Positions 627 to 25,457 of a DNA stretch of 27,745 nucleotides are shown one piece after another. The notes beneath the pieces are model-generated. The model was given only the letters and a program-made list of their open reading frames with translations, searched no databases and was not told the DNA's origin. Source of the stretch: a virus; the IMG/VR virus record IMGVR_UViG_3300019926_000057, positions 1 to 27,745 of that record; one strand, 5' to 3'. The position numbers and the translations under genes were made by a program. Position 1 is the stretch's first letter, and the number at the start of each line of letters is the position of its first letter.

Positions 627-1934
627 TTAGCCGACGCGAGAACGAGGCCGTGGGGCCGAGCGGTTGCGGTTGCGGATTTTGGGCGCGACGTGAGTGTAGA
701 GGAAGTACCGGAGGGCATCCATAGCGTGGTCGTTCTCCTTCACCGGGCGGTCGTGCGTCACGCCGTCCTTCTGGTCCCAGACGTAGGCTTGGAATTCCTC
801 CCGCACGGGCTTGGTGGAACCCACGTCGTTTACCCACAGGCGTTCCTCCCCCTCCGATTGAAAACCGAGGAGGGAGGCCGTAAAGTTGATCCCGTCGATC
901 ACCGCGTTGTCCGCAGGCGTGACGTTGTAGCCCCGGTCCCGAAGCTCCGCGATGAAGTCAGCCGCCGAAGGGTCCACGACCGTAGCGTCCAAGGGGACGC
1001 CCGAGGCGAAGCTCGCGAAGTCGTCCGCGTACTCGCTGTTGGTCTTGCGCCGCTCGCTCTCGGCCCCGCCCTCGTGGTAGTACGCGTCGAGGAGGTGGAC
1101 GCGGTCGGTCGGGTCGTCCCACCCGAACAGCAGAAACGTGGTCGGATTGACCGTCCCCACGTCCACGCCGATGCCGTAGTGGTCGAACCCTTGCGGGCAG
1201 TCGCGGACGTGCACCGCCTCGTCGAACATGTCGTACACCGCCCCCGCCGCCATGACCCACATGCCCTTGACGAGGCGCTGGTAGTAGAGGCCCCGATACT
1301 CGCGCTTGATGGCCTCCAAGAATTCGTCCGCGAGAAAGGCGTTGTCCTCCAACCGAAACCGAAACCAGAGCCACCGGAGGCCGTCCGTCTCGATTCGCGA
1401 GAGCCAGTCGTCGAGGAGCCAATGCTGGGGGTGGTCGGGGTTGGTCGTCCCGATCCCCTGCGCCCCTTTCGGGGACATGCGCCCGAGCAGTTCGTCAAAG
1501 AAGTTCTGCGGCCACAGGGTCAGCTCGTCGCCCAGCCAGCCCGCGACCGTCGCCCCACGGAGCTTCTTGTACGAGGAGCGATCGTAGGCCGACATGAGGT
1601 GCACGTGCCGCCCGCCGATGCGTGCGCTCTGGCTCCCCTTCTGGTACTGGAACAGTTCGTCCCCGAGGAAGGCGTTCGCGGGTTGTAGGACGTTGCGTTC
1701 GAGCGTGTCGAGGCTCTTGCCGATCATGAGGAGGTCGCCCCGATCCCCGCGCCTGTGTACGTGGCGAATGAACGGGAAGAGGGAGCCGATCGTCTTCCCC
1801 GATCGGATGGACCCGACGTAGATTGCGACACGCGGGTCGTGCTCCACGATCTTGTGCGTGGCCCACAGTTGCTTGGGCGCGATCCCAAGCTCCTGCCCGT
1901 CGATCGTGTACGTAGGGAGGTCGGCGTTAGGCAC
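627..1934 (-). CDS. terL: Terminase large subunit (DNA-packaging ATPase/nuclease)
   Basis: This 435-residue protein has the two-domain layout of phage large terminases. The ATPase half has a Walker A motif GSIRSGKT (41-48), a Walker B-like WLGDEL (133-138) and a coupling motif GTTNPDH (162-168). The RNase H-like nuclease half has acidic residues at D258 (GVDVG), D321 (VVDPSA) and D402 (ENDHAMDALRY). It pumps DNA into proheads through the portal and cuts the concatemer. The length is normal for the family. The start overlaps the sulfotransferase stop by 8 bp, implying translational coupling. The last about 15 residues are Arg/Asn/Pro-rich (RNRNRSAPRPRSR). That DNA also carries the CCGCAAC repeats found in the leaders of other genes, so it probably doubles as the 5' leader of the portal gene. 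The DNA class packaged (cos or pac) cannot be told from the sequence. Confidence 0.95.
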   Translation of the reverse strand: MPNADLPTYTIDGQELGIAPKQLWATHKIVEHDPRVAIYVGSIRSGKTIGSLFPFIRHVHRRGDRGDLLMIGKSLDTLERNVLQPANAFLGDELFQYQKGSQSARIGGRHVHLMSAYDRSSYKKLRGATVAGWLGDELTLWPQNFFDELLGRMSPKGAQGIGTTNPDHPQHWLLDDWLSRIETDGLRWLWFRFRLEDNAFLADEFLEAIKREYRGLYYQRLVKGMWVMAAGAVYDMFDEAVHVRDCPQGFDHYGIGVDVGTVNPTTFLLFGWDDPTDRVHLLDAYYHEGGAESERRKTNSEYADDFASFASGVPLDATVVDPSAADFIAELRDRGYNVTPADNAVIDGINFTASLLGFQSEGEERLWVNDVGSTKPVREEFQAYVWDQKDGVTHDRPVKENDHAMDALRYFLYTHVAPKIRNRNRSAPRPRSRVG

Positions 1935-2550
1935 GGACGGAGGAGTTCAGGTGCGGGAAGTCCACGGGCGGCTCCCTGCGGCCCAAGAACGAGCAGAGCG
2001 GCCCCCACCCGTCGCCTTCCGTCACGCTCATGCGGAGGACGTGGGCGTCGGTCTTGCGCTCAAGGCGGTCGACGCGGCGTTCGTGTCTGGTGTACGCCTC
2101 GGCCCACGTCGCGTGACGCTTGTAGAGGTCCCACCGGAGGGCCTTGTGCCGGGCGTAGTTGTAGGCCGGAGCACGCCCCTCGTACAGCGCAGGCGGGGCA
2201 GTCGACAGGGCGGGCGGCTGGTGCGCCCCAAAGAAGCGCCGACAGGAGGCCCGCCACTTCTGAAAGGGGCGCTCCGTGCAGATGAAGCGAGCATCGGGGA
2301 AGGCCCTGTGTAGCTCCCCCATCCGTTGGGCGACGGGCGTGTCGAGGGCGGCCTCCGTCCAGCAGAAGTCGTCCCACGACAGGACGCGCCCGTCCCGTTG
2401 AAAGTGCAGGGTGCGATACCCCAACAGGCGAAGGGCGGCGGCGAGGCTCGTCGTCCCGGTCTTGCTCAGGCCGATGCCGAAAATCTTGGCCGTGGGCGGC
2501 ACGTCGTAGGGCATGTGAGAGATCGGGTTCGTGATGTGATGCGCGTACAC
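1927..2550 (-). CDS. Sulfotransferase-family protein (PAPS-dependent)
   Basis: The N-terminus reads IFGIGLSKTGTTSLAAAL (about 23-40). This is the 5'-phosphosulfate-binding loop of PAPS-dependent sulfotransferases, with the signature SKTGTTSL at 29-36. A second motif ICTERPFQKW (90-99) supplies the arginine expected to bind the 3'-phosphate. The C-terminal VDFPHLN (196-202) is typical of small bacterial sulfotransferases of the Sulfotransfer_4/17 type. Such enzymes move sulfate from PAPS to a hydroxyl or amine on sugar, lipid or protein. The acceptor is unknown. The first in-frame start is a GTG at 2550; an ATG at 2514 would give 195 residues, and neither has a clear Shine-Dalgarno site. The gene sits between a nuclease gene and terL and overlaps terL by 8 bp. 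It is an unusual passenger in a packaging operon. A role in decorating virion, host surface or modified DNA is speculation. Confidence 0.8.
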   Translation of the reverse strand: MYAHHITNPISHMPYDVPPTAKIFGIGLSKTGTTSLAAALRLLGYRTLHFQRDGRVLSWDDFCWTEAALDTPVAQRMGELHRAFPDARFICTERPFQKWRASCRRFFGAHQPPALSTAPPALYEGRAPAYNYARHKALRWDLYKRHATWAEAYTRHERRVDRLERKTDAHVLRMSVTEGDGWGPLCSFLGRREPPVDFPHLNSSVRA

Positions 2551-4321: not shown

Positions 4322-4624
4322 TTACGCGTCGCTTTGAGGGCCGCCCACGAGCGTCGCCCACACGTACCGCTCCGACGTGCTGCCGGGGTCAATGTCGAGC
4401 GCCCGCCGCCACCGAAGGACGGTTCGAGGCGTCACCCCGGCGAGCCACGCAACCCCACGGAGGGCCTCCTCGTGGCGTCGCCCCGCGTCCATGAGGCGCT
4501 GGGAGAGTCGAGCATAGGACGCTCGATCCTGTGGCCGCAAGCGGTCGCGGTCGTCAGGGCGCAGCGTAGGGCGCAGCGATGCAAGGAGCGGCCCTCGGCC
4601 CATGTCGGTATTAGAAGGGGGCAT
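4322..4624 (-). CDS. Small helix-turn-helix protein
   Basis: This is a 100-residue protein from the ATG at 4624, or 93 residues from the ATG at 4603. The centre (EALRGVAWLAGVTPRTVLRW) has the spacing of a helix-turn-helix, preceded by an Arg-rich segment (RPTLRPDDRDRLRPQDRASY) that could contact DNA. The ATG at 4624 overlaps the preceding ParB-like gene by 14 bp. It lies just upstream of the putative terS in the same operon, so a role in packaging-site recognition or late transcription is possible. I do not recognise a named family. Longer upstream extensions are read-through of the ParB-like gene in another frame. Confidence 0.55.
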   Translation of the reverse strand: MPPSNTDMGRGPLLASLRPTLRPDDRDRLRPQDRASYARLSQRLMDAGRRHEEALRGVAWLAGVTPRTVLRWRRALDIDPGSTSERYVWATLVGGPQSDA

Positions 4625-5420
4625 CGTCACGCGGCGTAAATTCGGAAGGATCGACGCTTTCTTCTCTGGTTCCGGCGATGTAGTCTGCCGCAAGTAGCTC
4701 CAACACCTGCCCGCGCTTGAGGGCGGGGTCGTCGTGCAACTCATACCCGTGATCCGTCAACTCCTGACGCACCGCCTCGACCGCATCCTCCCACACGCCG
4801 TACTGCTCCTCGTGCAACACAACCTCGATCGATTCCCAATTCTCGCCGTGCTCCCCTTCGCCCGTCTCGCCGTCGTCGGCGGGGCCGTCCTCCTCCTCGT
4901 CGAGGTCGTCCCAGTCGAAGTCCAGCATGTCGTCGTAGTTGTCCAGCTCCTCGTCGGAGAACGGGAGCGTATCGAGAATGTCGTCTCGCCCAAACTCCCC
5001 TTCGATGTCCGCAAGGACCTCCGCAAACTCAATCGGGTCACGGTCAAACTTCGGGTCCGTCTCGGCGCTGATGCGCTTCGCTTCCGCTCGGGTTGAGGGG
5101 CCGAGGTTGTAGCAGAGCACCCGCTCGATACCGAGTTCGAGAAAGGCGTCCTTGCGGTGATTCCCGTCCACGATCTCGAACAGGACCCGGTTCTCGTGGT
5201 CGGCCTGAAACCCACCCTCCCCATCGGGCAAGGGGCGCACGATCGAGTTGATGAGTTGGCCGTTGCGCTGGATGTTCTGCTTGAGGGCGGCGGTCTTGGC
5301 CTCGTCTTCCTCCTTGTAGTTCCACTGCGCCTTCACGAGTTGATGCGGGTGCAGGACGCACAAGCCGCTCGCGTCGGGCGTCTCCGTCGTGGCAAAGTCG
5401 GCACGGTCGATCGGTTGCAT
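4611..5420 (-). CDS. ParB/sulfiredoxin-fold domain protein
   Basis: Of 269 residues, the first about 115 carry a ParB/Srx-like fold: VLHPHQLVKAQWNYKEEDE (22-40), a helix KTAALKQNIQRNGQL, and the nucleotide-binding motif DGNHRKDAF (85-93), the phage version of the ParB GxxR box. The middle (about 140-200) is extremely acidic. The C-terminal about 70 residues are helical and end in PRDDAPF. That tip resembles the acidic SSB C-terminal peptide used to recruit partners. ParB-N domains in phages work as CTP-dependent clamps, nucleases or modification accessories; which applies here is unknown. There is no HTH for a centromere. The start at 5420 follows the glycosyltransferase stop by 13 bp, so it belongs to the modification operon and could link it to packaging. 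A much longer in-frame extension only shadows the glycosyltransferase. Confidence 0.7.
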   Translation of the reverse strand: MQPIDRADFATTETPDASGLCVLHPHQLVKAQWNYKEEDEAKTAALKQNIQRNGQLINSIVRPLPDGEGGFQADHENRVLFEIVDGNHRKDAFLELGIERVLCYNLGPSTRAEAKRISAETDPKFDRDPIEFAEVLADIEGEFGRDDILDTLPFSDEELDNYDDMLDFDWDDLDEEEDGPADDGETGEGEHGENWESIEVVLHEEQYGVWEDAVEAVRQELTDHGYELHDDPALKRGQVLELLAADYIAGTREESVDPSEFTPRDDAPF

Positions 5421-5433
5421 GGGTCGGGTGGGC

Positions 5434-6477
5434 TTAGGAGCGGTCGGTGAGGGCGTAGCGAAGGATAGACGCGGCGCGTTGCGGGGGAAAGCGCACGGCA
5501 GAAGGCCCGAGGTCCCCGTCGAGGGCCTTTCGGAGGAGACGGACGGCCTGCCCCAGCGAGTCGTAGCGGTTCGAGGCGGGAAGCACGTCGCGGTACGACA
5601 GGCGGTTGGGCGCGATCGGGACCGCCCCGAGGTTCCGGGCCTCCTGCATGGCAATCCCGAACGTCTCCTGCCGCGCCGTCGACAAGGCCACGCGAGACAC
5701 GGAGAGCACGTCGTAGTACCGCTCTTTCTTCTCCCGCGGGGACATGCCCTCATCGTACAAGTCGACGGTACGAACGAAATCTGCGTCGTCCTGCGGGTAC
5801 CGCTTTCGGTACAGCCTGCGGATTTCGCGGTAGGTGTCGTGGGCCTTCTCCACGGCCTCGCGGTGCGGGAAGCAGACGAGCCGATCGGTAGTCTGCCGGC
5901 GGCGCTCCTCATCGGTGTAGACCGGAAGCCCGTGGACGGACACCGTATCGCCCGACAGCACAGCATCGAAGGTGTCCCGCACGAGATCCTTGTGGAAGGT
6001 GGACCCGACCATGACCTCGTCGGTCGCCCGAAGGACCGATGCCTCAAATCCGCGTGCCCAGTCGCCCATCCCCTTGTGGGCGAGGAAGTCCCACGGGTCG
6101 TAGGTCCCCGCATGCAGGATGCCCTTGATGTCCAAGTCCAAGTCGAGGGCGTCCCGCATGTACGCGACGCTCACGACGCCGGGATGCCACAGGTCGAGGA
6201 AGAACACGAGCGTCGGCCCCTCCATCTGCGGCAGAAGGCGGGCGAGCTTTTCGATCTGACGGCCCTTGTACTCGTTCGTCGTCACGGCGTCGAGGAACTG
6301 CCCTTCGGGCGGGTCGTACTCCGCGCCGCGCTTGTGGTCGAGGAGCCGCCAGTCGAAGGCGTCGGCGTCGTGGCGGTCGAGGGCCCCCGTGAACCAGTCC
6401 AGCCATTGCGCCGAGTAGCGATACGGCTGCGGCTCGATCGGGACGAGCAGGACCGAGTTGTAGCGGGCGTTGCTCAT
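5434..6477 (-). CDS. GT-B glycosyltransferase resembling tRNA-queuosine mannosyltransferase
   Basis: This 347-residue protein has a GT4-like GT-B layout. The N-terminal Rossmann half includes ILHAGTYDPWDFLA and then EASVLRATDEVMVGSTFHKD. The C-terminal half begins LVCFPHREAVEKA and ends with ALSTARQETFGIAMQEARNL followed by G-x-PI-x-PNRLSYRDVLP. The same series of elements (aromatic/His loop, NS-x-F-like turn, PHR...K, STA..E.FG.A..EA and P..L.Y.e.lP) is found in the DUF3524/QTMAN family, which mannosylates queuosine, a 7-deazaguanine, in tRNA. Both E residues of the donor-binding E-x7-E are present. The start ATG overlaps the dpdA stop by 4 bp (ATGA), so the two are translationally coupled. 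I infer that it glycosylates the deazaguanine base in phage DNA; a virion or cell-surface acceptor is the alternative. Family assignment to GT-B is firm; the QTMAN link is by eye. Confidence 0.75.
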   Translation of the reverse strand: MSNARYNSVLLVPIEPQPYRYSAQWLDWFTGALDRHDADAFDWRLLDHKRGAEYDPPEGQFLDAVTTNEYKGRQIEKLARLLPQMEGPTLVFFLDLWHPGVVSVAYMRDALDLDLDIKGILHAGTYDPWDFLAHKGMGDWARGFEASVLRATDEVMVGSTFHKDLVRDTFDAVLSGDTVSVHGLPVYTDEERRRQTTDRLVCFPHREAVEKAHDTYREIRRLYRKRYPQDDADFVRTVDLYDEGMSPREKKERYYDVLSVSRVALSTARQETFGIAMQEARNLGAVPIAPNRLSYRDVLPASNRYDSLGQAVRLLRKALDGDLGPSAVRFPPQRAASILRYALTDRS

Positions 6478-7427
6478 GCGAAACTCGTGGGGACGGATGC
6501 AGAGAACGGCGTCGGGTCCTCTTCCCACTTGACGCCTCGCTTGCGCCAGAGGCGGGTGAGGAAGCGTTCGTACTTCCGAAACTCACGGAGCGAGTGCTGA
6601 AAGCGAGCACGGCGCTGCTTCTTGCGGTCGTCGGTGGTGACCTCCCGCCCGTTCTGGCGAAGCATGTGCGCTCGAAACGCACGCTGAATGTCGACCTCGC
6701 CCTGATGATCTTCGGGGTCGCGCCAATGGCCGTGGTGCAGGTAGCCGTCCTCCTCGTCGAAATAGTGGTAGACGCCGAACTGCGCCCCCATCTTGTAGGT
6801 CGTCGAGTCCACCGAGTAGAACGGGTACTTGCGGAGCGTGCGGCCCGACACCCCGAACCCGTGCACTTTCACGCCCTGCTCGTAGGCGTATTTGAGGTGG
6901 GAGCCAATGCCATGGCATCGGCTGGGGCCCTCTGTCCCGACGAACCCAGAATCGGTGTCGTCGACCATCCTGCGGAAGTCGGAGGCGTCGTAGTGGTCGT
7001 CGTGCCACACGCGGATGCACTTTGAGGCGAGGCCCTCCTCACGGATGCGGTCGTACCACGCCTGCACCTTGTCGGGACCGACGAGCGCCCCAATGTCCAG
7101 TTCGACGAAGCGGTAGATGTGACGCCAATGCCGCTTGATCCAGTTGATGTATCGCTCGAAATACTCATCGGCCTTCTCAATCGAGGTATTTGTCTTGCGC
7201 CCCTCGCGCTTCGCGTAGTTGCCCGCCGTGTCTGCCGCGTCCATGTGATCGCTTTGCCACGTATGCGCCCCCGAGTCCACAATCACATCGAGGCCGTGGT
7301 CTTGGGCCGCAACCTCCAGTTGCTCCGCTTCGGTGTCGAGGTAGTAGAAGCTCACCATCGCCGTATGCAGAAACGGAAAGAGGTGGCGATCTTCGGGGCC
7401 TTCAAGTCCAGACGGAACGATGAGCAT
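6474..7427 (-). CDS. dpdA: DpdA-like DNA guanine transglycosylase (TGT superfamily)
   Basis: Of 317 residues, key signatures are VIVDSGAHTW (48-57), giving a TGT-type active-site aspartate at D51, then FVELDIGALVG with D111, and HGFGVSGRTLRKYPFYSVDS (189-208) continuing TTYKMGAQFG. The block G(F/V)G...L..YP..SVDST is characteristic of phage DpdA proteins. DpdA proteins swap guanine in DNA for a 7-deazaguanine base, as bacterial TGT does for tRNA. No tRNA-binding PUA domain is present. The start is the ATG at 7427, one base after the GT-A stop; a GTG at 7481 would extend into that gene. The stop overlaps the downstream glycosyltransferase (ATGA). The full pathway FolE-QueE-QueD lies immediately upstream. 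I am confident of the superfamily; the exact base inserted is not known. Confidence 0.85.
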   Translation of the reverse strand: MLIVPSGLEGPEDRHLFPFLHTAMVSFYYLDTEAEQLEVAAQDHGLDVIVDSGAHTWQSDHMDAADTAGNYAKREGRKTNTSIEKADEYFERYINWIKRHWRHIYRFVELDIGALVGPDKVQAWYDRIREEGLASKCIRVWHDDHYDASDFRRMVDDTDSGFVGTEGPSRCHGIGSHLKYAYEQGVKVHGFGVSGRTLRKYPFYSVDSTTYKMGAQFGVYHYFDEEDGYLHHGHWRDPEDHQGEVDIQRAFRAHMLRQNGREVTTDDRKKQRRARFQHSLREFRKYERFLTRLWRKRGVKWEEDPTPFSASVPTSFA

Positions 7428-7428
7428 G

Positions 7429-8100
7429 TCAGTCAGGGCGATTCGGTTCACGGTCGTCGGAAGCCCACAGCTTGTTGCCACCCCACTCCTCGTAGGTGTC
7501 CTCGAAGGCGCTCCCCAAGCCGGGGGTCGTGACGTGCATGAGCGGGGCGGGCACGTCCAGCCTGCGAAAGCCCGGAAGCTCGCGTTCGAGCGCGGCGATC
7601 ACCTGACAGTCGTTGCCCGGCGACGGGTCCCGCATGAGCACGTCGGCCAGCACCTCGAACGCGCCTGCGGGAAGCAGGAGGCCCGACAGGTGCACATATC
7701 TGGTCGCCTCCTTCGCTTTGCCGTCTGCGTTGTAGGTCACGCGAGGGAGGATGCCGTAGGGCGCCTCCTCCTCCGACAGGAGCCACGACCAGAGCGGCCC
7801 CGGCACGGCCACGTCGTCTTCGAGGTACAGGACGGTCCCGTCCACCGCAAGGTCGCTGGGGTCTTTGGCAGAGCGAGCGACGCGTCCCATCATCTCGTGC
7901 ATAGACGCGGGAGAGCGGCGCACAGCGCGGTCCACTCGATGCCCGTGATGCGCGGCACGGAGGGCGGCGCGAAACGCAGAGGACGGTTCTGTGTCGTCCT
8001 GATACACGACGCAAACGGGCGCGTCGTGGCACGCGTGCTGGGCGAGGAGGGCGGGCATTCGCTCCTCCACCACCGGAATGACAACAGAATCAAAGCGCAT
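7429..8100 (-). CDS. GT-A-fold glycosyltransferase
   Basis: This 223-residue protein begins FDSVVIPVVEERMPALLAQ and continues PVCVVYQDD, as in nucleotide-sugar Rossmann folds. LYLEDDVAVPGPLWSWLL (91-108) supplies an acidic EDD triad at 94-96 where GT-A enzymes bind metal and the sugar-nucleotide. VHLSGLLLPAGAFEVL and PSPGNDCQV follow, the latter with an acceptor-loop-like acidic residue. It probably transfers a sugar from a UDP- or GDP-sugar. It sits between the QueD-like gene and dpdA, with only one base to the dpdA start. This placement suggests a role in the DNA-modification pathway, for instance a second sugar. No membrane segment or signal peptide is seen, so it is cytoplasmic. The acceptor is inferred only. 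Confidence 0.7.
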   Translation of the reverse strand: MRFDSVVIPVVEERMPALLAQHACHDAPVCVVYQDDTEPSSAFRAALRAAHHGHRVDRAVRRSPASMHEMMGRVARSAKDPSDLAVDGTVLYLEDDVAVPGPLWSWLLSEEEAPYGILPRVTYNADGKAKEATRYVHLSGLLLPAGAFEVLADVLMRDPSPGNDCQVIAALERELPGFRRLDVPAPLMHVTTPGLGSAFEDTYEEWGGNKLWASDDREPNRPD

Positions 8101-8123
8101 GGACAGATTCGCCTATCGGGTAG

Positions 8124-8504
8124 CTACTCAAACAGAACGCGGGCTCCGTTCTCGCCGTCCTCGCTCACGTCGACCGACCGAACGCTGTGTCCATCGGAGG
8201 TCAACTGCTTTGCGAGCCATTCGCACACATGCTCGCAACTGCGCTCCCCGATCGACCCGCCCCGTCCTTCCTCGTGGACGAGGCGATCGAGGTGATCGTC
8301 AACCCGCTCCTTAAGATCGAGAAATTCCACGTCGCGGTCGTCATGGTCGACGCGCACGCTCACGACCACCAGAAACTCGTGCCGATGCGGGTGCCGCAGG
8401 TGCGCCTGCGATCCGGGGGCACCCTCGTAGTAATGCGTCGCGGCGAAGCGCGTCGTGCAGTAAACCGTCCGTTCAGAGACGTTGGGCATTGCGGTGGTGC
8501 TCAT
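8124..8504 (-). CDS. QueD/PTPS-like protein lacking the catalytic cysteine
   Basis: The 126-residue protein has a 6-pyruvoyl-tetrahydropterin synthase fold pattern: RFAATHYYEGAPG (H24), HPHRHEFLVVVSVRV with H40 and H42 for zinc, then VEFLDLKERVDDHLDRL, SCEHVCEWLAKQL and RSVDVSEDGENG. All three zinc histidines are visible. Canonical QueD has Cys four residues before the first His of HGH; here that position is Leu (L36) and the motif is HRH. It is therefore probably not a normal CPH4 synthase. It is a second family copy in the operon: the complete QueD is encoded at 9931-10365. It might modify a later intermediate or serve as a scaffold. The ATG at 8504 overlaps folE by 32 bp; an ATG at 8489 gives 121 residues and a 17-bp overlap and may be better. 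Confidence 0.7.
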   Translation of the reverse strand: MSTTAMPNVSERTVYCTTRFAATHYYEGAPGSQAHLRHPHRHEFLVVVSVRVDHDDRDVEFLDLKERVDDHLDRLVHEEGRGGSIGERSCEHVCEWLAKQLTSDGHSVRSVDVSEDGENGARVLFE

Positions 8505-9078
8505 AGAGTTCGCTTTTGACGGATTCGTTCTCCCGAAAGGCCCCCTCGATGAAGGCCGTGGTCGTGTGCGTCCCGCCTCGCTTCACGCCCCGCATTTCCA
8601 TGCACAGGTGCCGCGCCTGCACAATCACCCCGACCCCACGGGGCGCAAGCTCCTCGGACAGAAACGTGCCCACCTGATCGGTCAGCCGCTCCTGGTTTTG
8701 GAGCCCCCGCATGAAGTGGCGCACCACGCGAGTCAGTTTGGAGAGGCCCACCACTTGGTCGTCGGGAAGGTAGGCGACCGTCGCCCGACCGAAGAACGGG
8801 AGCATGTGATGTTCGCACAGCGAGTAGACCGGGATGCCGCCCTGCACGATCATCTGGCTGTGCCCTTCCGCGTCGAACGTGGTCAAATCGAGGCCCTCGT
8901 CCGTCCGCGCCCACGAGTAGAAGAAGCGGACCACGCGTTCGGGCGTATCGTCGAGGCCGTCCCGGTCGGAGTCCTCCCCGCACAGGGCGAGAAGCTGCTC
9001 GACGGCCTCCTTGGAATTTTCCTCCCACCGCGTGAGCGGACGGCGCGGGCGAGACGGTGGCGTCAGGTCGTCGTTCAT
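8473..9078 (-). CDS. folE: GTP cyclohydrolase I
   Basis: This 201-residue enzyme converts GTP to dihydroneopterin triphosphate, the first step towards 7-deazaguanines and folate. Diagnostic sequence includes DTPERVVRFF (44-53), PVYSLCEHHMLPFFGRATVA with zinc ligands C88 and H91, GLSKLTRVVRHFMRGLQNQE (111-130) with RLTDQV following, and GVGVIVQARHLCMEMRGV with the third zinc ligand C159. Family length and motifs are complete, so it should be active. It forms a toroidal decamer in known relatives. The ATG at 9078 overlaps the queE stop by 4 bp (ATGA). The start of the QueD-like gene lies inside its end. Within this operon its purpose is almost certainly base modification rather than folate supply, which is inference from neighbours. 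Confidence 0.95.
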   Translation of the reverse strand: MNDDLTPPSRPRRPLTRWEENSKEAVEQLLALCGEDSDRDGLDDTPERVVRFFYSWARTDEGLDLTTFDAEGHSQMIVQGGIPVYSLCEHHMLPFFGRATVAYLPDDQVVGLSKLTRVVRHFMRGLQNQERLTDQVGTFLSEELAPRGVGVIVQARHLCMEMRGVKRGGTHTTTAFIEGAFRENESVKSELYEHHRNAQRL

Positions 9079-9881
9079 GCAATCTGGATGGTCTTGTGCG
9101 ACTGCGTGCTGATGCGCCAGTCCGTTCGCGTCGTGGCAATCTCCTTGACCATGGTGCATGCGAGGTCGAAGCGGTCCCCGTCCTCGGGCTGGACGTAGAG
9201 GTGCTTCTGAAGGCCGTGCGGCGTGGCGCGGGGCCTGCACCGCTCCACAAGGCCGGGGTAATCGCTCGGCACGAAGTCAGGCACAACGAGCTTTACCTCG
9301 TCGCACCGATCGATTTGCAACTGCGCGTCGGGAATCTTGGGCGAGCAGCACACCCAGTCGGGCGTGTGCGCCTTGTGGTAGGCCGCCGTCCCGAAGGTGT
9401 CGGTGAGGGACTGCGTGCCGTTCGTCTCGACCGTAATCGAGGTGTCGGGGAAGCGGTCGTGGAGGGTGGCGCAAAGCTCCGCGTCCATCTGCAGGAGCGG
9501 TTCCCCGCCCGTGACCACGATGAGGGGCAGGGACTCGGCAGCCTCGGTCTTGCCAAGGATTCGATCCGCGATCTCGCCTGCGCTCAACTCGTCGGCCCCC
9601 TCTTTCGTGAACTCGGTGTCGCACCACATGGGGCAGCCCCACGCCTCGTCGCCGGGCGTATTGCGGCGGGCGTCCCGCTCGCGGTCCCCCTCGTACCCGC
9701 TCCACATGTTGCACAGGGCGAGGCGCAGAAAGACCGCAGGCGTCCCGCCCCAGTAGCCTTCCCCTTGCACGGTGCGGAAGATCTCCTTCACCGTGTAGGT
9801 CGACGGGCTTGAGGAGGTGTCCTTAGTCGGTTCGCCGCTTGGGGTCTGGAAGTCGTCGGGAAGCTCTGCGGACGTAGGCAT
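9075..9881 (-). CDS. queE: 7-carboxy-7-deazaguanine synthase (radical SAM)
   Basis: QueE rearranges 6-carboxy-tetrahydropterin to 7-carboxy-7-deazaguanine using SAM and a 4Fe-4S cluster. The protein (268 residues from the ATG at 9881) shows EIFRTVQGEG (33-42), the cluster region starting FLRLALCNMW (C57) and ending WGCPMWCDTEF (C83, C87), the SAM-binding VVTGGEPLL (122-130) and VETNGT. The cysteine spacing is C-x25-C-x3-C, whereas described QueE forms are C-x3-C-x2-C or C-x14-C-x2-C. The NMWSG part matches the C-x14 type with an insertion. All three cysteines are kept. Longer starts only extend into the leader. It lies 49 bp after queD and overlaps folE by 4 bp. Function is firm; the cluster loop is unusual. 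Confidence 0.93.
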   Translation of the reverse strand: MPTSAELPDDFQTPSGEPTKDTSSSPSTYTVKEIFRTVQGEGYWGGTPAVFLRLALCNMWSGYEGDRERDARRNTPGDEAWGCPMWCDTEFTKEGADELSAGEIADRILGKTEAAESLPLIVVTGGEPLLQMDAELCATLHDRFPDTSITVETNGTQSLTDTFGTAAYHKAHTPDWVCCSPKIPDAQLQIDRCDEVKLVVPDFVPSDYPGLVERCRPRATPHGLQKHLYVQPEDGDRFDLACTMVKEIATTRTDWRISTQSHKTIQIA

Positions 9882-9930
9882 AGGCAAGCGAAGAGAGCAA
9901 GCCAAGAGCAAGCGAGGCCATGCGGCAACC

Positions 9931-10365
9931 CTACCCGCCAGCGCCTTCCTCAATCTCGGCCTCGGCCCACATCGTGTCCGTCTCCCACAAGCGCACCCGC
10001 GTCACGGGGAGCGACGTGTGCTCGTCGAGTTGCTGCAAGATCCAGTGGGACAGGTTCTCGGCGGTCGTTTTCGTCCCAATCTCGATCACCGTGTAGTCGT
10101 GGCGACGGAGGGGACCGACAATCCGCTCCGACCCTTCTGCGATGAACGCGTGGTCGAGCGGGTCGACGACCGCCTCGTTGACCTCTGACTTGATGCGCCT
10201 CGCGTTCGCGACCATGCCCTCTTCGGGGCCTTCGGTTTGGGGCCGTCCCTGAATCTCGACCTCAAGGTGGTAGGTGTGGCCGTGTACCTGCCTGCAATCC
10301 TCGACCTTGGGGACGGAATGCGCGGCGTGGAAGTGAAACTGCTTGACGACCTTCGGCTGCGGCAT
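9931..10365 (-). CDS. queD: 6-carboxy-5,6,7,8-tetrahydropterin synthase
   Basis: This 144-residue protein has a full QueD/PTPS active site: QFHFHAAHSV (zinc His16), DCRQVHGHTYHLEVEI with catalytic Cys24 and zinc His28 and His30, PLDHAFI with the catalytic His of the Asp-His pair, TTAENLSHWI, and RLWETDTMWAE with the substrate-binding Glu. It converts dihydroneopterin triphosphate to 6-carboxy-tetrahydropterin. It is first in the modification block, with a 220-bp upstream leader rich in CCGCAAC repeats. I used the ATG at 10365; a longer start at 10488 reads only leader sequence. FolE, QueE and a second, Cys-lacking family member follow in the same direction. Confidence 0.93.
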   Translation of the reverse strand: MPQPKVVKQFHFHAAHSVPKVEDCRQVHGHTYHLEVEIQGRPQTEGPEEGMVANARRIKSEVNEAVVDPLDHAFIAEGSERIVGPLRRHDYTVIEIGTKTTAENLSHWILQQLDEHTSLPVTRVRLWETDTMWAEAEIEEGAGG

Positions 10366-10587
10366 GGGAGGATGGCCGCGTGGGGCCTGTTGCGGTTGGA
10401 GAGCGGTTGCGGTGCGGTAGAGAGTCCCACCGGGCGGCAGGCACTCATGTTTCGCGTTGCGGCACATGGAAACAAACGAGAACGGCACAAAACAGCAAAC
10501 CCCCGCCCCGCAGGGTGTGCCGCAGGGCAGGCGGGGCGAGGGTCGCCGTCGATGGGGCCCCGAAGCTCTCTTGGGGCGCGTGGAAGA
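10366..10587 (-). other. Leader of the queD operon (no gene seen)
   Basis: This 222-bp gap holds a GC-rich hairpin just after the upstream stop, another strong stem near 10501-10536, and four CCGCAAC or CCGCACC units close to queD. I looked for a preQ1 riboswitch and did not see its conserved core. No clear -35/-10 pair is visible, so queD may be read from upstream promoters by partial read-through. Confidence 0.4.
10501..10536 (-). terminator. Possible terminator or attenuator before queD
   Basis: On the minus strand CCCCGCC (10530-10536) can pair with GGCGGGG (10501-10507) across a loop holding two direct copies of CCCTGCGG. GTTTGCTGTTTTG follows. The T-rich stretch is interrupted, so termination is probably partial. 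Confidence 0.35.
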
Positions 10588-10947
10588 CTAATGCCCGTTC
10601 GGGATGAACACAAGAACGCGAGAGGCCGAAAGGGACTGCTGCTGTCCCCACGGGAGGTCCTCGTTTGCTTCGACGGGGTCGAGGGCGGCGACCATCTGCG
10701 AGTCGATGTCCACGACGTGATTCGTCCCGAACGCCGTCTCGATGAGGAGCGTCCCGTGACGCCAGAGCTTGCACCGCCGCGCCGTGCCCGCCGTGACGGA
10801 CCGAGGGCGGGTGCCCTCAATCAGTTTGTCCGTGAAGGTGACGGGAGTGCCCGCGCCTTTTTCTGGAGGGTGGGGCGGGGTGTCGGAGGATGGCATCGGG
10901 ATCGAATCGCCGGAAGGGGCCGAAGTCATCTGCTTTGAGTCTGACAT
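10588..10947 (-). CDS. Unrecognised protein
   Basis: I do not recognise this 119-residue protein. The first about 35 residues are Ser/Pro-rich and probably disordered. The rest (TFTDKLIEGTRPRSVTAGTA, KLWRHGTLLIET, NHVVDIDSQMVAAL) looks like a small beta-rich domain. The ATG at 10947 follows an A/C-rich leader with CACACACGCACGCACAG and a small GCAA-loop hairpin, the start context used by other genes here. It lies between two other unknown genes and queD, in the same direction. There is no membrane segment. Confidence 0.6.
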   Translation of the reverse strand: MSDSKQMTSAPSGDSIPMPSSDTPPHPPEKGAGTPVTFTDKLIEGTRPRSVTAGTARRCKLWRHGTLLIETAFGTNHVVDIDSQMVAALDPVEANEDLPWGQQQSLSASRVLVFIPNGH

Positions 10948-12457: not shown

Positions 12458-12486
12458 ATTATAATGAAACGCGTTATCGGTGTCAA
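12458..12486 (-). promoter_or_regulatory. Leftward early promoter
   Basis: On the minus strand TTGACA (12486-12481), a 17-bp spacer and TATAAT (12463-12458) give a near-consensus sigma-70-type promoter. GGTGCATTAG follows, as in the rightward copies. The spacer holds ATAACGCG, one half of the shared operator; the other half is degenerate. Confidence 0.85.
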
Positions 12487-12557: not shown

Positions 12558-12586
12558 TTGACATTGATAACGCAACGCGTTATAAT
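12558..12586 (+). promoter_or_regulatory. Early promoter P1 with palindromic operator
   Basis: TTGACA (12558-12563), 17-bp spacer, TATAAT (12581-12586). The spacer and -10 contain ATAACGC-AAC-GCGTTAT (12567-12583), a perfect 7-bp inverted repeat that a repressor could occupy. It drives 12627-13275. Confidence 0.9.
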
Positions 12587-13275: not shown

Positions 13276-13303
13276 CAGGCGACGCCTCCCCTCCGCACCC
13301 AGC

Positions 13304-13348
13304 GCCCCGGCGTTGTGGACCGTTCGGTCCACGGGTCGGGGCGTTTCT
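13304..13348 (+). terminator. Terminator copy 1
   Basis: GCCCCG (13304-13309) pairs with CGGGGC (13337-13342), and inside it GTGGACC-gttc-GGTCCAC forms a second perfect stem. GTTTCT follows. The same nested design recurs at 13959 and 15111. Confidence 0.75.
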
Positions 13349-13407: not shown

Positions 13408-13436
13408 TTGACATTGATAACGCAACGCGTTATAAT
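13408..13436 (+). promoter_or_regulatory. Early promoter P2 with palindromic operator
   Basis: TTGACA, 17-bp spacer, TATAAT. The block from the -35 to the leader ATG is identical to P1 for about 50 bp, including the ATAACGC-AAC-GCGTTAT palindrome (13417-13433). Confidence 0.9.
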
Positions 13437-13930: not shown

Positions 13931-13958
13931 GCCGCCTCCTTTCACGCTCCTAACAGTC

Positions 13959-14003
13959 GCCCCGGCGTGGTGGACCGTTCGGTCCATGCGTCGGGGCGTT
14001 TCT
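13959..14003 (+). terminator. Terminator copy 2
   Basis: GCCCCG (13959-13964) pairs with CGGGGC (13992-13997); inside, TGGACC-gttc-GGTCCA is a perfect stem. GTTTCTGTT follows. It closes the P2 cassette. Confidence 0.75.
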
Positions 14004-15080: not shown

Positions 15081-15110
15081 ATCGCCCTTGTACGCCACCC
15101 TCCCGCTCGC

Positions 15111-15157
15111 CCCCGGCGCGGTGGACCATTCGGTTCATGCGTCGGGGTTTTCTTTTC
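15111..15157 (+). terminator. Terminator copy 3
   Basis: CCCCG (15111-15115) pairs with CGGGG (15143-15147); inside, TGGACC and GGTTCA pair with one G-T wobble. TTTTCTTTTC follows, the best T-tract of the three nested terminators. Confidence 0.8.
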
Positions 15158-17811: not shown

Positions 17812-18681
17812 ATGCAACCGCAACAGCAGTCCCAGAAGGACCTTGGGTTCGAGTCCGTAAATCCGACCCCGAAGACAATTCCTCTCTCTGACATTCGCCC
17901 TACGGAGGTGTCCTCCTCCGACGTGGACGCGTCGATCGGCGCGTTCGGCGTGACCACGACGCCCCTCGTGCAGGAAACGCCGGGGGACCCCGAGCACACG
18001 TTTCGCGTGGTCGACGGGCGCAGGCGCATCGAGGCCCTTCGCGACACCGAAGGCCGCGAGCAGGTTCACGTCCAAGTGATCGGCGCGGATCTCGACGCAG
18101 AGGCCGACGCCCTCACGGTTGCTCACAACGTCTGTCGCTCCCCTTCGCCCTTGGAAGAAGCGGAGGCCCTTCGCGACCTCATCGACTCGGGGTACACGAA
18201 GGAGGCGGTGTCACGTCTCGGCATCCCGATCCCCACGATCAAGAAGCGCCTTCGTCTCGCGAGCGCCCCGCAAACGATCAAGGACGCCGTTCGGCGGGAC
18301 CAGATCGCAGAAGGAGTCGCGGAGAAGGTCGCCAACCTTTCGGTCGAGAATCAAAAGGCGTGCGTCGAGCACTTCCGGCAGGAAGGACAGCTCCGGCACA
18401 AGGACGTAAAGCAGGTCCGTCAGCGGACCCTCGACGACAGGGCCGAGCAGTTGCCGGGCGAACTGTTCGAGGGCGACCCGGCAGGCGACGGAGCGCCCTC
18501 GGAGGGCACGCCTTCGGAGGACACGCCTTCGGGAAACGCGCCATCGGAAGAGGCGCAACCGAGCGACGATCCCTTGCGCCTCGCGAAGCACGCGGCGCGG
18601 GAGGCCGTCGACGGCGGCACGCCCCCTTCCAAAGTCATGGGCGAGATTCGAGAGGCCGTGTTTGACAACGCGGTCGCGTAG
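17812..18681 (+). CDS. parB: ParB-family partition/regulatory protein
   Basis: Of 289 residues, the ParB N-domain is clear: IPLSDIRPTEVSSSDVDASI (23-42), FRVVDGRRRIEALRDTEG (64-81) with the GRRR nucleotide-binding box at 69-72, then VAHNVCRSPSPLEEAEALRD (103-122). A helix-turn-helix follows, YTKEAVSRLGIPIPTIKKRL (128-147). The C-terminal part has a 4 x 5-residue repeat (PSEGT PSEDT PSGNA PSEEA, 229-248) and a helical end. ParB proteins bind a centromere and load as CTP-dependent clamps. The parA gene lies about 6 kb downstream rather than next door, and the parA partner looks like an RHH protein, so this ParB may serve another clamp role. Start ATG at 17812. No parS repeat was recognised. Confidence 0.85.
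   Translation: MQPQQQSQKDLGFESVNPTPKTIPLSDIRPTEVSSSDVDASIGAFGVTTTPLVQETPGDPEHTFRVVDGRRRIEALRDTEGREQVHVQVIGADLDAEADALTVAHNVCRSPSPLEEAEALRDLIDSGYTKEAVSRLGIPIPTIKKRLRLASAPQTIKDAVRRDQIAEGVAEKVANLSVENQKACVEHFRQEGQLRHKDVKQVRQRTLDDRAEQLPGELFEGDPAGDGAPSEGTPSEDTPSGNAPSEEAQPSDDPLRLAKHAAREAVDGGTPPSKVMGEIREAVFDNAVA
18496..18555 (+). repeat. 15-bp tandem repeat inside parB
   Basis: Four imperfect 15-bp units coding PS(E/G)xx repeats form a flexible linker in the ParB C-terminal part. Confidence 0.75.
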
Positions 18682-24809: not shown

Positions 24810-25457
24810 ATGGTCATTTCGCTCGTCAACGAGAAGGGCGGCGTCGGAAAGACGACGCTCGCGACGAACCTCGCCTGCGGGGTGGTCGAGAAGGGCATGA
24901 CGGCGGGCATTCTCGACGCCGACCCGCAGGGTACGGCCTTGGACTGGAACGCGGCGCGAGAGACAGGCCTCATCCCCGTCGTGCGCCACGAGTCGGAGCA
25001 TATGGTGAGGGGCCTTCCCGATCGGCTTCGCTCCGTCGACGTTCTTCTAATCGACACGCCGGGGACCCTGTCCGGCATCACGGTCGAGGCCATCAAGTCC
25101 AGCGACGTGGCCCTCGTCCCGACGCAACCGTCCGCGTCTGACCTGTGGGCCGCACGAGACGCCATCGAGCTTGTCCGCGAGCGGCAGGCCGTCACGGGTG
25201 GGGCCCCCATCCTGCGGGTCGTCGTGTCGCGAGGCAAGGTGGGGACGCGCCTCACCGGAGAGGCGCACGAGGCAATCGAGGCGATCGGAGCCACGCCCCT
25301 CCCCGCAGGCACGCGAGACAGGGAATCCTACAAGCGGTCATTTGGGCAAGGGCAGAGCGTCCTTGCGTCTTCAGACTCGAAGGCGAAGTCAGAGATTCGG
25401 CAAATTACTACCGATGTACTCGAACTACTCTCTACCGCGCACAATGAGCCTTGCTGA
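24810..25457 (+). CDS. parA: ParA-type partition ATPase (ParF-like)
   Basis: This 215-residue protein is a small ParA without an N-terminal HTH. It has the deviant Walker A KGGVGKTT (9-16, Lys9 and Lys14), the Walker A' aspartate in LDADPQG (36-42), and Walker B VLLIDTPG (77-84). The length and the partner encoded downstream match the ParF class of type Ib systems, which move plasmid copies along the nucleoid. The end overlaps the next gene by 14 bp, so both are coupled. The start ATG at 24810 follows the inverted repeat in the promoter. Its presence in a phage genome suggests plasmid-like maintenance. It could also position phage DNA or other cargo. Confidence 0.9.
   Translation: MVISLVNEKGGVGKTTLATNLACGVVEKGMTAGILDADPQGTALDWNAARETGLIPVVRHESEHMVRGLPDRLRSVDVLLIDTPGTLSGITVEAIKSSDVALVPTQPSASDLWAARDAIELVRERQAVTGGAPILRVVVSRGKVGTRLTGEAHEAIEAIGATPLPAGTRDRESYKRSFGQGQSVLASSDSKAKSEIRQITTDVLELLSTAHNEPC

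Follow-up and report, generated by a model that had tools for sequence, protein, structure and literature searches.

Among the known sugar-bearing bases are the glucosylated hydroxymethylcytosine of phage T4, made by DNA glucosyltransferases, and the queuosine (Q) of vertebrate tRNA, which QTMAN and QTGAL glycosylate via the cyclopentene ring. The known 7-deazaguanines of phages, to our knowledge, carry small substituents at position 7. The phage systems that depend on DpdA (9g, CAjan, Rosebush and phi38:2; Hutinet 2019, PMC6884629) share a cluster of FolE, QueD, QueE and a DpdA-type transglycosylase, and the bacterial dpd island includes DpdA and the ParB-like DpdB, which assists insertion (PMC12839542). 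The virus record IMGVR_UViG_3300019926_000057 of IMG/VR (here the window: the whole linear stretch of 27,745 nucleotides, or 27.7 kb, which carries terminase genes and a lysozyme) contains a minus-strand operon in which the genes of the phage cluster and a ParB-like partner of DpdA are joined by a QueD-like protein (q2) and a predicted GT4-type glycosyltransferase (GT-B). This operon probably makes a sugar-bearing, hypermodified 7-deazaguanine in phage DNA.

The window differs from the DpdA-dependent phage systems in its lack of QueC as well as in the addition of q2 and the GT4 glycosyltransferase, and from the bacterial dpd island in being viral and in having q2 and GT-B; no DpdC was recognized among the genes examined. 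As with the T4 glucosyltransferases, a sugar would be placed on a modified base of phage DNA, but the base would be a purine analog set by a transglycosylase, and GT-B resembles GT4 enzymes (BshA, MshA). As with QTMAN and QTGAL, the acceptor would be a 7-deazaguanine derivative, but in DNA instead of tRNA, and the Q cyclopentene ring is not expected here. No report of glycosylated deazaguanine in DNA was found in the literature searched, whose scope did not include Cui 2023, Iyer 2013 and a 2024 review. Such a base would unite base replacement and glucosylation, classic DNA-cloaking strategies, on a purine.

The operon and the pathway to a deazaguanine in DNA

The operon comprises the following genes, preceded by a promoter directed towards it:

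9931..10365, minus strand: QueD (6-carboxytetrahydropterin synthase; PF01242, E 1.2e-27; C-x(n)-HGH, LDH and substrate Glu motifs in the sequence)
9075..9881, minus strand: QueE (7-carboxy-7-deazaguanine synthase, radical SAM; phrog_2076, E 8.5e-26)
8473..9078, minus strand: FolE (GTP cyclohydrolase I; PF01227, E 2.6e-58)
8124..8504, minus strand: q2, QueD-like protein of the phrog_17812 family (PTPS, 4.6e-8; phrog_17812, 2.9e-16)
7429..8100, minus strand: 223-residue orphan protein (VLYLEDDV motif, no family match), initially labeled "GT-A"
6474..7427, minus strand: DpdA-type DNA-guanine transglycosylase (phrog_887, E 5.1e-21)
5434..6477, minus strand: GT4-type GT-B glycosyltransferase, from its predicted fold (weak matches to Pfam GT4, 0.084, and phrog_4356, 0.0026)
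4611..5420, minus strand: ParB-like protein, probably a counterpart of DpdB that works with DpdA (phrog_723, E 2e-10)
12458..12486, minus strand: sigma-70 promoter, perfect in 12/12 positions (TTGACA-17-TATAAT)

All of the genes that the initial annotation had placed between 10365 and 5434 are present, by Pfam and PHROG profile matches and gene coordinates, and the three tight junctions that it listed are correct: queE overlaps folE, and the stop of dpdA overlaps GT-B, by 4 nucleotides each, and a single nucleotide separates the 223-residue gene from dpdA. Its description of an operon without gaps fits these junctions and also an overlap of folE and q2 that it had overlooked (17 or 32 nucleotides, set by the choice of q2 start), but not the gaps of 49 nucleotides between queD and queE and 23 nucleotides between q2 and the 223-residue gene. 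The operon also extends by at least one overlooked gene, that of the ParB-like protein (5420-4611), which begins 13 nucleotides beyond GT-B. The perfect sigma-70 promoter argues for a bacterial host.

FolE, QueD and QueE, the enzymes that would turn GTP into 7-carboxy-7-deazaguanine (CDG), are all encoded, as in DpdA-dependent 7-deazaguanine DNA modification elsewhere; QueE has its three cysteines arranged as C-x25-C-x3-C, compared with the canonical CxxxCxxC. The initial annotation had recognized this route and its likely end in DNA, and overlooked the absence of QueC, which is found neither in the window nor in 24 viral contigs with related GT-B genes (some longer than 180 kb); in five isolates that carry q2 together with GT-B, no QueC match exceeds the cut-off. 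The presence of QueC is a criterion for the preQ0, G+ and preQ1 types of modification, not for DpdA-dependent systems in general, so the window is not of the preQ0 type. Without QueC, CDG would stay unconverted to preQ0, and the expected base is CDG or a derivative such as 7-deazaguanine, although the window is a fragment and a host could provide QueC.

The transglycosylase gave nothing useful against Pfam and matches phrog_887, annotated as queuine tRNA-ribosyltransferase, which confirms the DpdA-like gene of the initial annotation. A nine-member profile (alignment A7) has as its sole match in the PDB the DNA-guanine transglycosylase 7ui4 (E 0.0063), with SVDSSS of the profile opposite SIDSTT and, weakly, DSGAF opposite DCGAF; D51, G53, D111, H189, D207 and S208 are invariant in the alignment. 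The previously overlooked ParB-like gene adjoins this type of DpdA, or is one gene away from it, in seven loci (the window, L009, L010, L013, L023, L054 and L103, that of L103 being identified by eye), and in L013 and L023 the homolog follows DpdA immediately (6.9e-20 and 2e-14). A ParB-like gene likewise adjoins DpdA in phi38:2, described as a 7-deazaguanine-modified phage (PMC11515303). Profile comparison gave no significant link between the window-type DpdA and the ACP17-type transglycosylase (3.6%), and related the latter to the PA5oct-type transglycosylase (94.6%).

Thus, a phage-encoded pathway that places a deazaguanine in DNA is well supported. FolE, QueD and QueE also serve the queuosine of tRNA, which some phages are thought to boost (PMC6884629), but it is very improbable that the genes of the window enhance tRNA modification instead: QueC, required for preQ0, is missing, the only PDB match of the transglycosylase profile acts on DNA, and a ParB-like partner is nearby, as in DNA systems.

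A glycosyltransferase linked to deazaguanine genes

The gene at 6477-5434 is predicted to encode a GT4-type GT-B glycosyltransferase. Its AlphaFold2 model (44-sequence alignment; pLDDT 89.7, pTM 0.88) matches the GT4 enzymes GlgM (E 5.8e-11), BshA (4.1e-10), MshA and glycogen synthase in Foldseek at 10-16% identity, the best viral match being the homolog of phage ACP17; no T4 DNA glucosyltransferase is among the top 50 folds. In addition to the GT-B fold, the protein has the catalytic residues R-x4-K and E-x7-E of retaining GT4 enzymes: all 49 GT-B sequences of the alignment share R206, K211 and E279, and at position 271 there are 30 with E and 19 with D.

By tblastn against 50,697 phage records, GT-B has 20 matches (E 4e-32 to 7e-8, 24-30% identity) and no weaker ones down to 0.01, which belong to Wroclawvirus (PA5oct, Paride), ACP17, Phosso, BUCT-ZZ01, X1 and PhiXhv/Ep032. 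In every one of these lineages GT-B is accompanied by deazaguanine genes. QueE is the neighbor in Wroclawvirus, joined by FolE in Phosso and X1 and by both FolE and QueD in ACP17 and BUCT-ZZ01; X1 also has an annotated queuine transglycosylase. The Xanthomonas phage PhiXhv-15 (L008, 4780-6908) has a Gat-QueC gene (PF06508, 4e-49) annotated as fructose-6-phosphate aminotransferase, in place of which Ep032 has a 521-residue SGGxDS open reading frame (ORF). Gat-QueC of PhiXhv-15 is adjoined by a PIG-L deacetylase and then by the GT-B relative, a combination that suggests an amino-sugar variant. A phrog_17812 gene, the family of q2, adjoins GT-B or lies one gene away in the first five lineages (Wroclawvirus, ACP17, Phosso, BUCT-ZZ01 and X1), and the reverse search with q2 of ACP17 recovered those five along with five phages that have no GT-B (RHph_I1_18, Ahp1_CNU-2021, D479, Bakedbeans and MA9V-3).

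Single-protein scans of IMG/VR with GT-B and with DpdA found no close relatives, and the GT-B alignment contains no stretch conserved enough to scan, whereas a scan with the q2 alignment found 80 IMG/VR loci; q2 and GT-B occur together in about 50 loci of IMG/VR. With the window and the phages included there are 92 q2 loci, 58 with GT-B and 34 without, in which gene families were called with locally built profiles. Gene order is highly variable among the 58, and 53 of them have within 8 kb a tRNA-guanine transglycosylase (TGT)/DpdA-like gene of one of three kinds. An NAD-dependent sugar epimerase is near GT-B in 25 of the 58, abutting or overlapping its stop in about ten, and other neighbors are cytidylyltransferases (12), DegT-type aminotransferases (10) and a second GT4-like gene (3); epimerases also occur in 5 of the 34 loci without GT-B and thus are not exclusive to it. 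Because the loci were picked by similarity to the q2 of the window and include some redundancy (at 50% identity their GT-B proteins form 12 groups), these counts indicate association, not frequency. Cellular genome bins contain 17 q2 loci, and GT-B is present in 11 of these, among them loci of Magnetospirillum.

This recurrent, rearranged co-occurrence across unrelated phages, often near nucleoside diphosphate (NDP)-sugar genes, strongly supports the tie between GT-B and the deazaguanine pathway made by the initial annotation. The co-occurrence of dpdA with two glycosyltransferase genes, which it had proposed as a check, was found for GT-B only. The 223-residue protein, its second transferase, has no homolog in Pfam, PHROG, PDB, phage or IMG/VR searches, and an alignment-free AlphaFold2 model of it was useless (pLDDT 37). 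Its GT-A label came from VLYLEDDV (the EDD motif), which resembles the metal motif of GT-A enzymes, a resemblance only; the notion of two dedicated transferases is accordingly not supported. The m4 family (phrog_1574) of q2 loci without GT-B was rejected as a relative of this protein (hhalign, 0.05%).

The phage might instead carry plain CDG or 7-deazaguanine in its DNA and direct GT-B at another substrate, for instance a glycan on the surface of the host or a protein of the virion. Glycans are common substrates of GT4 enzymes, and the five q2 phages without GT-B indicate that the q2 pathway can run in the absence of GT-B. Yet within the phage collection no member of the GT-B family was found apart from deazaguanine genes, its linkage survives rearrangement and three kinds of transglycosylase, and its neighbors in isolates are mostly genes of DNA metabolism, not of tails or lipopolysaccharide; this separate role for GT-B is therefore considered unlikely. 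The same repeated linkage, exclusive within the phage collection and reinforced by sugar-nucleotide genes, argues that GT-B probably decorates the base. Since numerous unrelated phages have GT-B next to their deazaguanine genes, the modification seems to be a common means of disguising DNA, and occurrence of the module in cultivated phages, including the Pseudomonas jumbo phages Paride and PA5oct, makes it testable at once; the Paride paper has no mention of the DNA bases of the phage.

The QueD-like protein and the attachment of the sugar

q2 belongs to phrog_17812, a family listed as of unknown function. In an alignment with E. coli QueD (4ntm/3qn0), the residues that mark the fold of the QueD superfamily, namely three histidines for zinc (H24, H40, H42) and a glutamate for the substrate (E115, equivalent to Glu110), are retained in q2 and invariant in 34 sequences. 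The catalytic Cys27 and Asp70-His71 that a 6-carboxytetrahydropterin (CPH4) synthase needs are missing, and the family bears an invariant Ser-Cys-Glu. Thus, the Cys-less QueD relative of the initial annotation is borne out by the alignment, though it had been overlooked that q2 represents a family widely found in company with the pathway genes. Retention of the residues for zinc and for a guanine-like ring, without the chemistry of QueD, fits action on CDG, and q2 is most likely a zinc-binding QueD relative that acts on this compound; the leading idea is that it decarboxylates CDG to 7-deazaguanine. Cui and colleagues reportedly predicted, in 2023, a phage CDG decarboxylase named DpdL, which would work in phages lacking preQ0; q2 possibly belongs to this family. 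Phage phi38:2, which differs from the window in having QueC and QueF, has no match to q2 and was rejected as a link from q2 to a known base. These results supply a hypothesis of function for phrog_17812 and for phrog_10773, also listed as unknown.

Our observations are of gene content, of the predicted GT-B fold with its catalytic residues, and of the recurrent linkage of the GT-B gene; from them we infer all of the chemical steps, the identity and attachment point of the sugar, and whether glycosylation precedes or follows insertion. CDG from the first three enzymes would be processed by q2, perhaps by decarboxylation to 7-deazaguanine; DpdA, helped by the ParB-like protein, would swap guanine in DNA for the modified base; GT-B would use a nucleotide sugar to glycosylate the base; and the sugar would shield phage DNA from host nucleases.

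Alternatively, GT-B may glycosylate the free base or nucleotide first and DpdA may insert the sugar-bearing product, a variant that overlaps the preceding scheme and that is possible, if tentative. The nearest solved folds (BshA, MshA, LmbT and SenB) use small molecules and phosphoribosyltransferases are often neighbors, but small bases fit TGT-type active sites, and phosphoribosyltransferases could recycle freed guanine instead.

Several points weigh against a glycosylated deazaguanine in the DNA of this phage. The modified base and the sugar chemistry are predictions from genes; GT-B of the window is just 20-33% identical to other GT-B proteins; no nucleotide-sugar gene was recognized in the window; and the IMG/VR loci are fragments, retrieved via q2 and partly redundant. 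If q2 simply removes the carboxyl group, position 7 would offer no oxygen or nitrogen for a normal glycoside, and attachment of the sugar would take a C-glycosidic bond or a different atom of the base; if the carboxyl group is retained, a glycosyl ester is possible. A C-glycosylated 7-deazaguanine in a widespread family of bacterial viruses, for which q2 would strip the carboxyl group from CDG, DpdA insert the base and GT4 attach the sugar at carbon 7, is more specific and rather doubtful.

Other q2 loci and other features of the window

Phosphoribosyltransferases (PF00156) recur among the q2 loci (L002, L006 and about 35 more), where they might recycle guanine released by the transglycosylase. 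The m1 family (D-N-S-[AG]-F-E motif, alignment A10), found beside q2 in loci without GT-B (L011, L016, L018 and 24 more), is perhaps a further type of transglycosylase, an identity that could not be proved. Magnetospirillum contigs L097-L100 have GT-B, q2, a transglycosylase and QueD consecutively at about 6800-10900; L100 also has an integrase-like ORF in the vicinity, and these loci may be a prophage or a host island. Amycolatopsis contigs L103 and L104 have DpdA, q2, QueD, QueE and FolE (about 5800-10050) but no GT-B, and apparent terminase and capsid genes downstream; they are possible prophages with an unglycosylated version.

A sulfotransferase gene of the window (1927-2550, minus strand; PF17784, 7.8e-33), unusual in a phage, shares 8 nucleotides with the gene for the large terminase subunit; its product could target the same DNA modification or something else. 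The operon promoter is one of several repeated, near-perfect sigma-70 promoters (12458-12486, minus strand; 12558-12586, plus strand; copies near 13408, 14053 and 15511) that hold a dyad, ATAACG...CGTTAT, between the hexamers and look repressor-controlled. A GC-rich hairpin element, GTGGACCGTTCGGTCCAC, occurs three times between small plus-strand genes (13303-13348, 13958-14003 and 15109-15154); the copies are possible terminators. A ParA-type ATPase (24810-25457, plus strand; PF13614) and a second ParB-like gene (17812-18681, plus strand), weakly similar to the ParB-like protein of the operon, suggest a plasmid-like or partitioned lifestyle.

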